From NCBI GenBank assembly GCA_017860345.1, contig JAFNAV010000033.1:1-64000 (forward strand): a DNA stretch of 64,000 nucleotides, written 5' to 3'. Numbering within the stretch: position 1 is the first letter of the stretch; each line of letters starts with the position of its first letter. This DNA comes from Bacteroidota bacterium. Lineage in GTDB: Bacteria > Bacteroidota > Bacteroidia > Bacteroidales > Paludibacteraceae. The translations under genes and the position numbers were made by a program. The notes below the pieces were generated by a model that saw nothing but the letters and a program-made list of their open reading frames with translations, had not been told where the DNA came from and did not search any database. Positions 4,667-45,146 of the stretch are shown here, piece by piece.

Positions 4667-5233
4667 CTATATAAATAATTGTATCGAACTCTCACCTGCA
4701 TCAGCCACAAATGTAGCTGCGCCTGCATAGCTTAAATTCGGATAGTCAATGAATTCTTCTTTCTTGAAGCCCATTAATCCCATCGACATTTCGCAGATAA
4801 CGATTTCGATACCCAACTCACCTGCTTCCTGAAGCATTTTTTCAAGAGACATCACGTTTTGTTTTTTCATCAGGTAGGAAATCATTTTAGGACCCATACC
4901 GGCCATGTTCATATTCGATAGTTTCAGTTTCTTGGTTCCGTTAGGAAGCATCATACCGAACATTTTTGAAATAAAATCTTTGCCTTTGGGTGATTTCTTG
5001 GGGTCGCGAAGTGCGGAAAGCGACCAAAATGAGAAGAAGAGTTTTACCTGTGTATCCATAGCTGCTGCTGCAATCGAAATTACAAAAGCTGCCAGAATTT
5101 TATCCAAATCGCCCGAAACCACAGCTATCGAAAGCTGATCTTTCCGCGCATCCTGTAATTGTTCTACTTTTGCCTGCAACTCATTGATTTGTGCCTGCAA
5201 TTGTTCCATGTTTATTTCAGTGGTGTTTTCCAT
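4667..5233 (-). CDS. DsrE/DsrF-like sulfur-relay protein (DsrE2 type)
   Basis: 188 aa. The N-terminal 30 residues form a short coiled coil (NMEQLQAQINELQAKVEQLQ), followed by a DsrE fold. The likely sulfur-binding cysteine is in IVICEMSMGLMGF near residue 150; a hydrophobic segment with AAFVISIAAAAMD near 50 resembles the DsrE2 type, which can be membrane-associated. DsrE proteins exchange persulfides with TusA, and tusA is the next gene, 361 bp downstream with a hairpin array in between. This is probably the first gene of the operon; a CRP-type palindrome lies 98 bp upstream of its ATG. It ends in TAG, so the organism uses UAG as a stop. Confidence 0.88.
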   Translation of the reverse strand: MENTTEINMEQLQAQINELQAKVEQLQDARKDQLSIAVVSGDLDKILAAFVISIAAAAMDTQVKLFFSFWSLSALRDPKKSPKGKDFISKMFGMMLPNGTKKLKLSNMNMAGMGPKMISYLMKKQNVMSLEKMLQEAGELGIEIVICEMSMGLMGFKKEEFIDYPNLSYAGAATFVADAGESSIQLFI

Positions 5234-25243: not shown

Positions 25244-26281
25244 ATGAAAGCCCGTCATATTCATTTCGATTTACAGTTCAGATTCCCGGCCGGAACATCT
25301 CGCGGCGTGTTGTTGAAAAAACCATCATCGTTTCTGATACTCGAGCAGGATGGTTTCACCGGTATTGGCGAATGTTCCACTATTCCCGGATTGAGTATCG
25401 ACCCTATGCCTCTTTATGAACAAAAGTTGAATAATCTTTGTGACTGGCTCAGTTTGGGTAAAAAACCCGAAGATGTCGATTTGTCAGCTTTTCCTTCCAT
25501 TGCTTTCGGACTCGAAACCGCCTTGCTCGATTTAAAAGCTGAGGGTTCAAAAAAGCTTTTTCCTTCGATGTTTACTGATGGAAAGACCGGGATTCCTATC
25601 AATGGGTTGGTTTGGATGGGTGATAAAGCTTTTATGCAGCAACAAATTACCGAAAAAATTGCGGCAGGGTATCATTGTATAAAACTAAAAGTCGGAGCAT
25701 TAGATTTTAATACTGAGCTCGAAATTATAAAAGGTATTCGTAAGCATTTTTCAGCTCAGGAAATTGAATTGAGGTTGGATGCTAATGGCGGTTTTACACC
25801 CGAAGAAGCTTTGGATAAGCTGGATAGGTTGGCAGTTTATCAGATTCATTCTATTGAACAACCGATAAAGCCGGGATTACCTGACGATATGGCCTTGATC
25901 TGCAATAAATCTCCCATACCAATAGTGCTCGATGAAGAATTGATAGGAGTGAATTCGGATGATAAAGAATTAGTGCTTGAGAAAATAAAACCTGCATACA
26001 TTATTTTAAAGCCAAGTCTGCTTGGTGGATTTAAACAATCGGAAGAGTGGATTACTTTAGCCGAAAAGCATGATGTAAAATGGTGGGTTACTTCGGCGCT
26101 CGAAGCCAATATCGGTCTGAACGCTATTGCGCAATGGACTTACACTTTGAACTCAGAGCTTCCTCAGGGTTTGGGTACCGGGCAATTATATCACAATAAT
26201 ATTCCTTCGCCTTTAGAAATAGTTCATGCTAAGTTGCATTACAACCCGCAGATACGTTGGGATTTAACTTCTTTTGTTTAG
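25244..26281 (+). CDS. menC: o-Succinylbenzoate synthase MenC
   Basis: 345 aa member of the enolase superfamily (muconate-lactonizing subgroup) that dehydrates SHCHC to o-succinylbenzoate. Catalytic residues can be placed: the KxK lysine pair in HCIKLKVGALDF near residue 148, metal ligands in LRLDANGGFTPEEA (Asp), HSIEQPI (Glu) and IVLDEELIG (Asp), and the second lysine in YIILKPSLLGGF near 255. It ends with TAG. It follows menA by 13 bp; 108 bp downstream an accessory BRO-domain gene interrupts the way to menE. I saw no menH gene for the preceding step in this locus. Confidence 0.93.
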   Translation: MKARHIHFDLQFRFPAGTSRGVLLKKPSSFLILEQDGFTGIGECSTIPGLSIDPMPLYEQKLNNLCDWLSLGKKPEDVDLSAFPSIAFGLETALLDLKAEGSKKLFPSMFTDGKTGIPINGLVWMGDKAFMQQQITEKIAAGYHCIKLKVGALDFNTELEIIKGIRKHFSAQEIELRLDANGGFTPEEALDKLDRLAVYQIHSIEQPIKPGLPDDMALICNKSPIPIVLDEELIGVNSDDKELVLEKIKPAYIILKPSLLGGFKQSEEWITLAEKHDVKWWVTSALEANIGLNAIAQWTYTLNSELPQGLGTGQLYHNNIPSPLEIVHAKLHYNPQIRWDLTSFV

Positions 26282-29125: not shown

Positions 29126-29965
29126 TTATATCAATTTTGCATCGGTAAGTATTAGTTCCATTTCGGCCTGAACTTTGGCAGCTTCCGTACGGGCTGCCTG
29201 TGCATAATCTTCAGCAACCGAAGCAAAAATTATCTGGCGCGATGAATTTACTAATAATCCGCAGCTTGAGTTGAGTCCGTATTTAGCTACTTCCTGCAAG
29301 CTACCTCCTTGCGCACCAACGCCGGGTACAAGCAAGAAGTGATCCGGCACTATAGCCCTAATGTCAGTAAGCATTTCGGCTTTGGTGGCTCCTACTACGT
29401 ACATCATATTTTCGTCGTTGCCCCAGTTGAGCGATGTTTTTAATACCTTTTCAAATATGCGTTCACCTGTTTCGGCATCGCGTACAAACTGGAAATCGTA
29501 AGCTCCTTTGTTTGAGGTTAATGCAAGTAAAATTACCCATTTGCCTGCATAAGTAAGGAACGGAGTTACTGAGTCCTCGCCCATATAAGGTGCCACGGTT
29601 ACAGCATCGTAATTTAGCTCGTTGCCAAAAAAAGCATGCGCATACATGGCCGATGTATTGCCAATATCACCGCGCTTAGCATCGGCAATAATGAAATGGG
29701 CTGGATAGTTTGTGCGGATATATTCTACAGTAGCATCCAGCGTGTCAAGTCCATTTACACCACTGTTTTCGTAAAAAGCCAGATTGGGTTTATAGGCTAC
29801 GCAATAATCAGCCGTAGCGTCAATAATAGCTTTATTAAACTCAAGAACGGGGTTTTCGTATTTCTCCGATAAAAAAGCAGGGATTTTTTTCGCGTCGGTA
29901 TCAAGCCCCACACACAGGAAAGATTTTTTCTCCTTGATTAGTTTAAATAATTCTTGTTTGGTCAT
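29126..29965 (-). CDS. pyrF: Orotidine 5'-phosphate decarboxylase PyrF (type 2)
   Basis: 279 aa, last step of UMP synthesis. The catalytic signature is [15 protein letters not shown] near residue 95, preceded by [15 protein letters not shown] near 15 and [12 protein letters not shown] near 55, and followed by [10 protein letters not shown] near 217. The length and motif spelling place it in the longer type 2 (mycobacterial) group common in Bacteroidetes. Start ATG at 29963-29965. The prfA-like gene lies 71 bp upstream on the same strand, and the two may be co-transcribed. A bidirectional terminator lies 33 bp after the stop codon. Confidence 0.95.
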
Positions 29966-30036: not shown

Positions 30037-31041
30037 TTATAATTCGCTTTCTTTCAGTCTTTCAGCATTTTCGGCAACTATCAGGTTGTCAATCACATCC
30101 TGTATGTCGCCTCCTACGAAAGCAGTCAGGTTGTACATTGTGTAATTGATTCGGTGGTCGGTAACTCGTCCCTGCGGGTAGTTATACGTCCGGATTTTGG
30201 CTGAGCGGTCGCCTGTAGATACCAGCGTTTTTCTGCGGGCTGCAATGGCCTCATGGTGTTTTGATACTTCGATGTCGTACAGTTTTGTGCGCAGCATTTG
30301 CATAGCCAGTTCTCTGTTACCCAGCTGTGTACGAGCCTGCTGACACACCACAACCATCCCCGTAGGTTTGTGCGTTAATTGCACCTTGGTTTCTACTTTA
30401 TTTACGTTTTGCCCACCAGCACCTCCTGAGCGCGAAGTCTGCATTTCAATATCAGCCGGATTCAATTCAAAATCCACTTCTTCAGCTTCGGGCAGCACTG
30501 CTACGGTGGCTGCCGATACACCCTCGCCGGTAACGGTAAATATAATTTCCTTAAAACCACCAGAGGTCCCTTCGCTCAAACTGGTAATTTCAATTTTCCA
30601 TCCTTTCGATTCGCAGTATTTTGAATACATCCTGAATAAGTCGCCTGCAAAAATAGCCGCTTCATCGCCCCCGGTGCCACCACGTATTTCCACTACAGCA
30701 TTTTTCCCGTCTTCAGGGTCGGCAGGTATAAGGAGTAATTTTATACTTTCCTCCATCTCAGGAATTTTTGGTTCGGTTTCATCCAATTCAGCCTTAGCCA
30801 TTTCTCTGAGTTCGGGATCGTTCTCATTTTCTAAAATCTGTTTTGCTTCGGCGCAATGAGCCAAAGCAAGTTCGTATTCTTTTTTAGCTGTCAGAATTTT
30901 TTCCAGATCATGGTATTCTTTGTTGAGCTTTACATAGCGCTTTTGATCCGAAATAACTGCCGGGTCGGTTATCAGGGTCGATATTTCTTCAAATTTGTGT
31001 TGCAGTCCTTCTAATTTTTCAAGAATTGTTTTTTCAGCCAT
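30037..31041 (-). CDS. prfA: Peptide chain release factor 1 with internal 27-residue gap
   Basis: 334 aa. RF1 ends translation at UAA and UAG. The catalytic GGQ ([15 protein letters not shown]) and the C-terminal [14 protein letters not shown] are intact, and the N-terminal domain is normal. However, FTVTGEGV is followed directly by [15 protein letters not shown]. In RF1 proteins the segment between these holds about 27 residues (YGxLKYESGxHRVQRVPxTExxGRxHT), including the PxT tripeptide that reads the stop codon. The gap is in frame; the junction lies between 30516 and 30517. Adding 27 gives 361 aa, the family's usual length. Either this gene has an 81-bp deletion and cannot read stop codons normally, or the assembly lost 81 bp. 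Two genes in the window (dsrE-like, menC) end in UAG, which needs RF1. Confidence 0.9.
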
Positions 31042-31075: not shown

Positions 31076-31774
31076 TTATTTTTTTGTCTGGAGTTCGTAG
31101 GTTCTTATTCTATCTCTGTTTATAGCTTCGTTGGCTATGTTATGCATCATTTTCTGAAAGCGCCATTCCATAATTTTTTTAAAAATATTTTTAGTGACAA
31201 AAATATTAAAAAACCAACCAAATTTTATATACGTTGTCAGTACTATGGTACATTCGTTTTTCTGTGGAATTACCTGAAAAATTCCAATTGTTTTCTTAAG
31301 AAAAGCATCAGCATCGAGCATCTCTAAATGTACGCTTATGTGTCCGTTTTGCTCTGTTTTTGTTAATCTGCTGTCAACATGTATCTCCGGGAAAGAGATA
31401 ATACCGGTAACATCTACTGCGCCGGTGGCCTTTAGTATGTTGTTCGACTCATCAAATGCTGTCGATTTCAGGTTGAATACCATCATAGCATCGTTTTCTT
31501 TTCTAAGCTTCATCCCTTTCAGCGCCCAGGTAAAGAGCTTGTTCAGGTCGTATTTTAATTGGTATACATAGTCGTTTGCCACATCGTTCATAATTTCGGG
31601 CGGTACTTTCACCTTTACCTGGCAGTATGTAACAAACTGGCCATCTGTATATTTTGTCGACAAGGAATCGATATCACTCCCTTTCGCAGAAGGTGCAACT
31701 GCAAGGAAAATAATCAGAGAAACAATATATTTTGCAACCATGCTATGAAGCAAAGATCTACAGATTTTTTTCAT
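31076..31774 (-). CDS. Exported hypothetical protein
   Basis: 232 aa, family not recognised. The N-terminus is a signal peptide or membrane anchor (AKYIVSLIIFLAVAPSAKGS), so the mature part is periplasmic or surface-facing. The rest is alternating strands and helices without cysteine-rich, nucleotide-binding or catalytic motifs that I can identify (segments LKATGAVDVTGIISFPEI and NECTIVLTTYIKFGWFFNIFV are typical). A START/SRPBCC-like fold is conceivable from the pattern but is not supported by a motif. It lies 34 bp upstream of prfA on the same strand and may head a transcript with prfA and pyrF; a -7-like TATTTTTG is at 31792-31799 on the minus strand, 17 bp before its ATG. Confidence 0.75.
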   Translation of the reverse strand: MKKICRSLLHSMVAKYIVSLIIFLAVAPSAKGSDIDSLSTKYTDGQFVTYCQVKVKVPPEIMNDVANDYVYQLKYDLNKLFTWALKGMKLRKENDAMMVFNLKSTAFDESNNILKATGAVDVTGIISFPEIHVDSRLTKTEQNGHISVHLEMLDADAFLKKTIGIFQVIPQKNECTIVLTTYIKFGWFFNIFVTKNIFKKIMEWRFQKMMHNIANEAINRDRIRTYELQTKK

Positions 31775-44312: not shown

Positions 44313-45146
44313 CTAAAAGGCTCCGCTGGCACATTTAAGTTTCTCCATTTCTTCTCGTTCAATGTCTCGGTATCCACCAAGACGCATCAGCATCTCATCG
44401 AAATCGACCAGATGAGCATCAAACTCGGGGCCATCTACACAAACAAATTTTGTTTTTCCGCCCACACTTACGCGGCAAGCGCCACACATTCCTGTTCCGT
44501 CAACCATAATGGTATTGAGCGAAGCTAAAGTTGGAACATCGTATTTTTTTGTCAGCAGACTTACAAACTTCATCATTATAGCCGGACCAATGGTTACGCA
44601 CAAATCTACTTTTTCGCGGTTTATAACTTTTTCCACGCCATTGGTTACTAATCCTTTATTGCCGTACGAACCGTCATCGGTCATTACAATTACTTCGTCA
44701 GCCAGTTTTTTCATCTGCTCTTCCAGTATGATGAGGTCTTTTGAGCGGGCGGCAAGTACGGTGATTACCTTGTTGCCGGCTTCCTTAAGGGCGGCCACAA
44801 TAGGCAGCATGGGGGCAGTACCTACACCACCACAGGCACAGATTACGGTTCCAAAGTTTTCGATGTGAGTTGCTTTTCCGAGCGGCCCAACCAAATCAGT
44901 AATATAGTCACCTTCATTTAAAGCACAAAGTTTTGAAGATGATACACCCATTTTTTGTACTACCAAGGTAATAGTACCTTTCAGGATGTTGGCATCGGCA
45001 ATGGTCAGAGGTATTCGTTCGCCCTTAGCGCCAACCTTAACCATTACAAAATGTCCTGCTTTGCGGGAGCGGGCTATCAATGGAGCCTCTACTTCAAACT
45101 TAATAACGTTAGCTGAGAAATACTCTTTGCTGACAATTTTGTTCAT
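44313..45146 (-). CDS. nfnA: NfnA: NADH/FAD, [2Fe-2S] subunit of bifurcating transhydrogenase
   Basis: 277 aa, ferredoxin-NADP reductase/PyrK-like. Visible: AGHFVMVKVGAKGERIPLTIAD near residue 30 (FAD), ICACGGVGTAPMLPI near 100 (nucleotide), and the [2Fe-2S] motif DGTGMCGACRVSVGGKTKFVC near 218. Bifurcating flavin sites are in NfnB; this subunit binds NADH. The pairing with the GltD-like gene is diagnostic. SudA/sulfide dehydrogenase is an older name for the same pair in some species. The minus strand has TAATTTTG at 45178-45185, 31 bp before the ATG, a likely -7 box. Confidence 0.9.
   Translation of the reverse strand: MNKIVSKEYFSANVIKFEVEAPLIARSRKAGHFVMVKVGAKGERIPLTIADANILKGTITLVVQKMGVSSSKLCALNEGDYITDLVGPLGKATHIENFGTVICACGGVGTAPMLPIVAALKEAGNKVITVLAARSKDLIILEEQMKKLADEVIVMTDDGSYGNKGLVTNGVEKVINREKVDLCVTIGPAIMMKFVSLLTKKYDVPTLASLNTIMVDGTGMCGACRVSVGGKTKFVCVDGPEFDAHLVDFDEMLMRLGGYRDIEREEMEKLKCASGAF

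Follow-up and report, generated by a model that had tools for sequence, protein, structure and literature searches.

A release factor 1 gene lacking the stop-codon-reading segment in a Paludibacter-like draft genome: a probable error of assembly or recent deletion

The prfA locus and the 81-bp gap

The window, i.e. the stretch of 64,000 nucleotides of contig JAFNAV010000033.1 analysed in the present study, holds a prfA locus of the ordinary kind, belonging to a Paludibacter-like genome of the Bacteroidales (Table 1). The gene encodes release factor 1 (RF1), the factor for the stop codons UAG and UAA, starts with ATG at 31041 and ends with TAA at 30037-30039 on the minus strand. Because pyrF follows downstream and the same gene without a Pfam match lies upstream as in two members of the genus, G001 and G016, the short gene is the native prfA; with its best similarity to RF1s of the genus, it is an orthologue by descent. 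The upstream gene has a relative at the corresponding place in G001 and a tandem pair of relatives in G016 (222 and 221 aa; L131 14761-16113, G016:C1:924761-926113).

Table 1. Position of the short prfA, its parts and neighbours, and of the genes ending in TAG within the window.
Feature	Coordinates	Strand	Remarks
prfA, release factor 1	30037..31041	minus	ORF of 334 aa, without stop-codon-reading segment
N-terminal part, residues 1-175	30517..31041	minus	domain 1 (PCRF) and start of domain 2
81-bp junction	30516..30517	minus	27 codons absent in comparison with relatives
C-terminal part, residues 176-334	30040..30516	minus	rest of domain 2, GGQ domain 3, domain 4
pyrF (OMP decarboxylase)	29126..29965	minus	downstream neighbour (Pfam); same order in G001 and G016
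Gene without Pfam match	31076..31774	minus	upstream neighbour; relatives in this position in G001 and G016
DsrE-like gene	4667-5233	minus	TAG-ended
MenC-like gene	25244-26281	plus	TAG-ended
Oxidoreductase-like gene	44313-45146	minus	TAG-ended

A first-pass annotation of this DNA had described an otherwise complete prfA-like gene with intact GGQ, from which 81 bp were missing in frame, and both statements were confirmed: the GGQ region is unbroken, and the coordinates together with an alignment of 113 RF1s place the loss between 30516 and 30517 as a property of the sequence and no effect of alignment. On codon level, GTA (Val of GEGV) ends with base 30517 and is followed from 30516 by TCG (Ser of SAATVAV). 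With the 27 missing residues HRVQR and PxT are gone; PxT is the stop-codon-reading motif of RF1, and SP(F/Y) that of RF2 (PMC1586002; PMC4530459). The closest RF1s, those of G001 and G014 with 361 aa each, possess 27 residues between the same two points. Identity to the intact RF1 of G001 amounted to 89% with the gap excluded and 82% with it included, the N-terminal part reaching 84% and the C-terminal part 94%. It was also considered whether GEGV directly before the junction (GDNV in G001, GENV in G014) was a trace of a two-step event, and this was dismissed, GEGV being present in 22 of the 113 aligned proteins, the short one included.

Profile searches recognized both the PCRF domain (PF03462, 177.2 bits, residues 13-175, profile positions 1-162 of 194) and the RF-1 domain (PF00472, 132.3 bits, residues 188-297) with its GGQ motif. 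The best NCBIfam family was RF1, where NF001859 reached 403.5 bits (cut-off 400) in a match split in two and TIGR00019 reached 400.5 bits (cut-off 423.25); three intact relatives gave undivided matches to these profiles, scoring 502.7 to 522.7 and 493.6 to 513.3 bits, respectively. Of the features looked for in a functional RF1, the short protein has the GGQ motif and the PCRF domain, and lacks PxT and HRVQR. It shares with bacterial RF1 (PrfA) the PCRF domain, the GGQ domain and the locus adjacent to pyrF, but differs in the absence of the 27 residues and in falling below the TIGR00019 cut-off.

Comparison with other RF1s

The alignment comprised the RF1 of the window, 29 RF1s of the same genus (35 genomes searched, six of them without a kept locus), 80 named loci and three sequences from a scan of the order. 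The named loci were the best 80 of 585 relatives, a choice from which the genome of the window and its near kin may be missing, and four contigs, judged by their length, had entered twice (L012/L044, L026/L056, L039/L115, L034/L116), so that the 112 other sequences represent at most 108 distinct ones. All 112 of these (at most 108 distinct) fill the 27 columns and carry a PxT tripeptide, namely PQT (49), PAT (44), PDT (11), PVT (3), PET (2) and PRT, PST and PLT (one each), and the RF1 of the window shows 27 gaps.

The own genome of the window (G000) was included in scans of the genus, the order and the phylum. A peptide of 48 residues spanning the junction found an unbroken match in G000 only among 48 genomes of the genus; 46 of the other 47 gave matches, none of which crossed the junction, and G031 gave no match. 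With the same peptide, 291 of 393 genomes of the order showed some match, the other 102 being uninformative, and among the matches listed only that of G000 was unbroken (89.9 bits; next 39.8). The phylum was scanned with a DNA pattern for Val-Ser-Ala-Ala-Thr-Val-Ala-Val, which other short forms would escape, and five of 395 genomes matched, the own genome included. Of the other four, L182 and L183 proved to be an OPT transporter and a sodium:solute symporter, respectively, the match in L180 lay in a frame open for just 43 codons, and in L181 the peptide was not in open reading; a second match in G806 was left out of this classification. Stray matches of this kind were to be expected, since the pattern written backward as a control matched 15 genomes. 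The search for relatives sharing the short form was therefore negative: among the matches listed for 48 genomes of the genus, 393 of the order and 395 of the phylum, as well as in the 112 aligned RF1s, no other RF1 had the junction form.

Near-invariant columns, defined by one residue shared among 97% or more of the other sequences, numbered 123, of which 22 lie inside the gap. The short RF1 keeps all 101 outside it, domain 2 included. Among the 112 other RF1s, 69 showed no departure at near-invariant columns, 26 showed one and 17 two or more. Identity of prfA to its nearest relatives at third codon positions is only about 45-49%, which argues for an old split of lineages with the protein under constraint. 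As a long-standing loss of function, or an equally old new function without the reading hairpin, should have relaxed residues of domain 2, and none was relaxed, the pattern of conservation indicates that the 81-bp loss is recent, or present in the assembly alone.

Predicted structure and function of the short protein

AlphaFold2 models, each built from an alignment of 29 sequences and of modest confidence, were compared, with the intact RF1 of G001 as the one control, and conclusions were drawn from the difference between the two models only. In the control model (mean pLDDT 74.9, pTM 0.57) a helix (residues 175-182) is followed by a strand (184-190), the PQT loop and a second strand (201-211). 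The gap corresponds to residues 176-202 of G001 and hence takes out everything from the helix through the first strand and the loop to the beginning of the second strand. In the model of the short RF1 (mean pLDDT 66.4, pTM 0.37) the hairpin of domain 2 is lost, what remains of the second strand is unformed (mean pLDDT 39, residues 181-190) and confidence lies below that of the control in the blocks from residue 101 onward, some further stretches of low confidence being common to both models. This predicted contrast agrees weakly with a loss of function. With the motifs that read stop codons gone, the short protein as written very probably could not read stops, i.e. terminate at UAG or UAA.

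A likeness is offered by the truncated prfH of E. coli K-12, another homologue of class-I release factors, in which the sheet of domain 2 has lost a central strand, and whose folding the authors judged unlikely and which they called a pseudogene (PMC1586002). However, prfH as described there is an accessory gene and about 1,000 nt were lost across two genes (PMC1586002), whereas the short RF1 would be needed for UAG and lost 81 bp in frame.

The first-pass annotation had allowed for an unusual RF1 that reads stops differently. Such a protein would have to recognize stops through other parts or act as a codon-independent rescue factor like ArfB or RFH. Its intact frame, GGQ motif and domain 1 speak in favour of this, as does the existence of other release-factor relatives with a GGQ domain (RFH and ArfB, matched here below cut-off). 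However, the scores of the short RF1 are far under the cut-offs, with 67.9 bits against 166.65 for the RFH (prfH) equivalog and 46.4 bits against 100 for that of ArfB, in a protein of 334 aa with a PCRF domain, and neither score is higher than those of intact RF1s. Furthermore, no relative with the same form was found, no new loop stands in place of the lost one, constraint was kept at all 101 near-invariant positions including those of domain 2, the predicted domain 2 is damaged and both pTM and pLDDT of the model fall below those of the control, RF2 is of an ordinary kind (see below), and toxicity would be expected of a release factor that acts independently of the codon and without regulation. 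A working short RF1 thus found no support and is considered very improbable.

Use of UAG and other release capacity

Stop codons were counted in mechanically called ORFs of at least 100 aa, which are not annotated genes, in the window and 20 further stretches of the genome (together 319,667 bases of 3.27 Mb). TAG ended three of 53 ORFs in the window and 14 of 181 in the further stretches, 17 of 234 altogether. Among them are the dsrE-like gene and menC, from which UAG had been noted earlier as a stop in use, and both are indeed TAG-ended. Stretches from relatives contained 13 of 116 (G001), 8 of 48 (G014) and 16 of 71 (G016) TAG-ended ORFs; the share hence varies within the genus from 7% (17/234) in G000 to 23% (16/71) in G016. 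Read-through past TAG would add a median of 8 aa and in none of the 17 cases more than 50, a length exceeded after 24 of 167 TAA and 2 of 50 TGA stops. Reassignment of UAG was rejected in view of the 17 of 234 ORFs ending in TAG and the short read-through extensions. UAG is a working stop here, low in share but not avoided. A suppressor tRNA was not seen in the window and the 20 stretches, a weak negative given that these 319,667 bases of 3.27 Mb yielded just two tRNA genes besides one tmRNA gene.

The assembly consists of 113 contigs and is 86.22% complete. Apart from the short RF1, one class-I factor with a PCRF domain was detected there, namely RF2 on contig 36. It has an ordinary SPF loop and, of 218 columns that are invariant among 15 relatives (14 of the genus, one of the order), departs at a single one (V to I). 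In this genome and all 15 relatives (L002 = G000:C36; L184-L198) an in-frame stop precedes the long frame of RF2 at a common point, as would be expected of the programmed frameshift known in prfB. At the position that we take to be 246 in E. coli numbering, RF2 carries Ser. All E. coli strains used for one RF1 knock-out had Ala, not Thr, at that site (PMC3982533).

It had also been suggested that a second intact prfA exists, in which case the copy in the window would be a relic and the working gene would lie in an unbinned part of the genome, for which an assembly of 86.22% completeness leaves room. No second RF1 and no RF1 fragment was found elsewhere in this assembly. A peptide search for another segment of the VHRVQR/PxT type returned only the equivalent in RF2 and the flank of the short prfA, and a DNA pattern for the VHRVQR-type site gave, on contig 51, a single stray hit that contained a mismatch. 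Further evidence against a second copy is the position of the window's gene in a conserved locus beside pyrF, and the fact that, among the matches listed, no member of the genus had matches of RF1 strength at two places. We regard this explanation as most unlikely.

Domain-3 types and recombination

The GGQ domain occurs in two types among the 30 RF1s of the genus (L003-L032): 27 have SSGAGGQSVNTTYSA, and three (G000, G001, G014) belong to a minority type. The minority type comprises L003, L004 and L006, as opposed to L005 and L007-L032, and corresponds to 30040-30480 of the window; judged by eye in the alignment, the switch of type lies about 13 residues past the gap. Ishikawa et al. (2015; PMC4530459) described swapping of domain 3 in RF1 of Bacteroidia by gene conversion between RF1 and RF2, and named Paludibacter propionicigenes as having a reverted motif in this domain. 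The two types seen here fit this conversion and reversion as published there. The short RF1 shares with that system the mosaic RF1 of the group, and the boundary given for Prevotella nigrescens, Glu213, is near the end of the gap, by residue number only (PMC4530459). However, the conversion concerns domain 3 and leaves PxT intact in the RF1s seen here, which the short RF1 lacks, and since G001 and G014 are of the same type without a gap, a domain-3 swap alone does not explain it. A slip in a later recombination at the domain-3 border is a possible source of the gap. Within prfA, GC3 rises from 0.37 in the N-terminal to 0.48 in the C-terminal part, which hints slightly at a mosaic origin.

Assembly error or genuine deletion

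Breakpoints, repeats, k-mers and composition were examined and no mechanism of an artefact was seen in them. Compared with the 29 genus relatives, the breakpoints shared 1 bp in 25 and 2 bp in four cases, and at most five of 12 bases. Between 30380 and 30650 one direct pair of 9 nt (89% alike) and one inverted pair of 9 nt were detected, neither at the junction, in a search blind to any copy inside the lost stretch. Unusually conserved DNA might have tangled assemblers at the level of k-mers, but the data lent this little weight: in nucleotide conservation within the genus the missing stretch holds rank 6 among 335 windows, at a value of 0.82 that is hardly above the others, and the longest exact match of the short prfA with the 29 genus loci does not exceed 21 bp. 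A chimeric contig joining two species within prfA was rejected, as the flanks are alike: the tetranucleotide distance between the 20 kb on each side was 0.10, below the mean of pairs of stretches from the own genome (n = 45, mean 0.14, sd 0.03), and GC3 of ORFs was 0.420 to the left (24 ORFs) and 0.442 to the right (21 ORFs) of the gene (p = 0.052). Nor is the assembly generally prone to gaps, since 17 of 18 orthologue pairs with G001, all except RF1, were free of gaps longer than four residues on the side of G000. That the loss is in frame has an expectation of 1 in 3 under an artefact and counts against one.

Nevertheless, an error of assembly or a damaging deletion of recent date is the most likely interpretation, more so than a novel mode of translation termination. 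Of the three options in the first-pass annotation, this one fits, with the short form in no other scanned genome and all other conserved positions intact, whereas a second prfA was not found and an unusual RF1 is unsupported. Within it, we would give slightly better than an even chance to a loss of the 81 bp in assembly or consensus making, and consider this somewhat likelier than a genuine recent deletion, because the short form occurs in one draft assembly only, the gene is kept in the genus, and neither decay nor compensation was seen. The 81 bp would then have dropped out during assembly or consensus making in this one assembly, the living organism would keep an intact RF1, and the short protein as encoded would retain domain 1 and the peptide-releasing GGQ domain with the stop-codon-reading hairpin gone. 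The likelihoods attached here to the four explanations, i.e. artefact, genuine deletion, second prfA and working short RF1, are matters of judgement and were not computed.

A genuine recent deletion in the sampled strain or population, equivalent to a loss-of-function allele of RF1, is a serious though tentative candidate. Cells could survive it if RF2 ends the genes with UAA and UGA, and the few with UAG depend on rescue by tmRNA and on second stops near by; alternatively, cells with intact RF1 would coexist in the population. The clean in-frame junction without repeats or signs of a chimera is what such an event may leave behind, and the modest share of UAG (17/234 ORFs), the short read-through after TAG (median 8 aa, 0/17 over 50) and the presence of tmRNA would make it tolerable. 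Ser at the supposed site 246 of RF2 points in the same direction, and published work reports Ala, not Thr, in the strains of one RF1 knock-out (PMC3982533) and RF1 knock-outs of E. coli viable under certain conditions (PMC4434889). However, the second of these also tells that earlier RF1-less E. coli grew badly until 95 UAG genes were changed (PMC4434889), and RF1 and RF2 are both indispensable in bacteria with the standard code, as stated by Ishikawa et al. (PMC4530459). RF1 is matched in 46 of the 47 other genomes of the genus, a null allele is unlikely to reach the consensus of a natural population, and RF2 is without signs of adaptation to a codon that is low in share yet not avoided. RF1-less E. 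coli resembles a cell with the short allele alone in leaving UAG without a dedicated reader, but those strains were engineered in the laboratory (PMC3982533; PMC4434889). A non-exhaustive literature search by title found no report of a natural RF1-null bacterium.

It is unlikely that the deletion is both real and fixed, which would mean a free-living bacterium that uses three stops with no factor reading UAG. An equally doubtful extension of this is that UAG would fall to RF2, to near-cognate tRNAs and to rescue of ribosomes, the organism being an intermediate on the way to UAG reassignment.

Conclusions

As the evidence stands, the short prfA is mainly a caution that 81 bp missing perfectly in frame from an essential gene can, in a draft genome, mimic a new protein variant. 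If it were a true and fixed allele, a bacterium with no functioning reader of UAG would exist in nature, which to our knowledge is otherwise known from engineered strains only. The 'unassigned codon' step in a change of the genetic code would then become directly observable.
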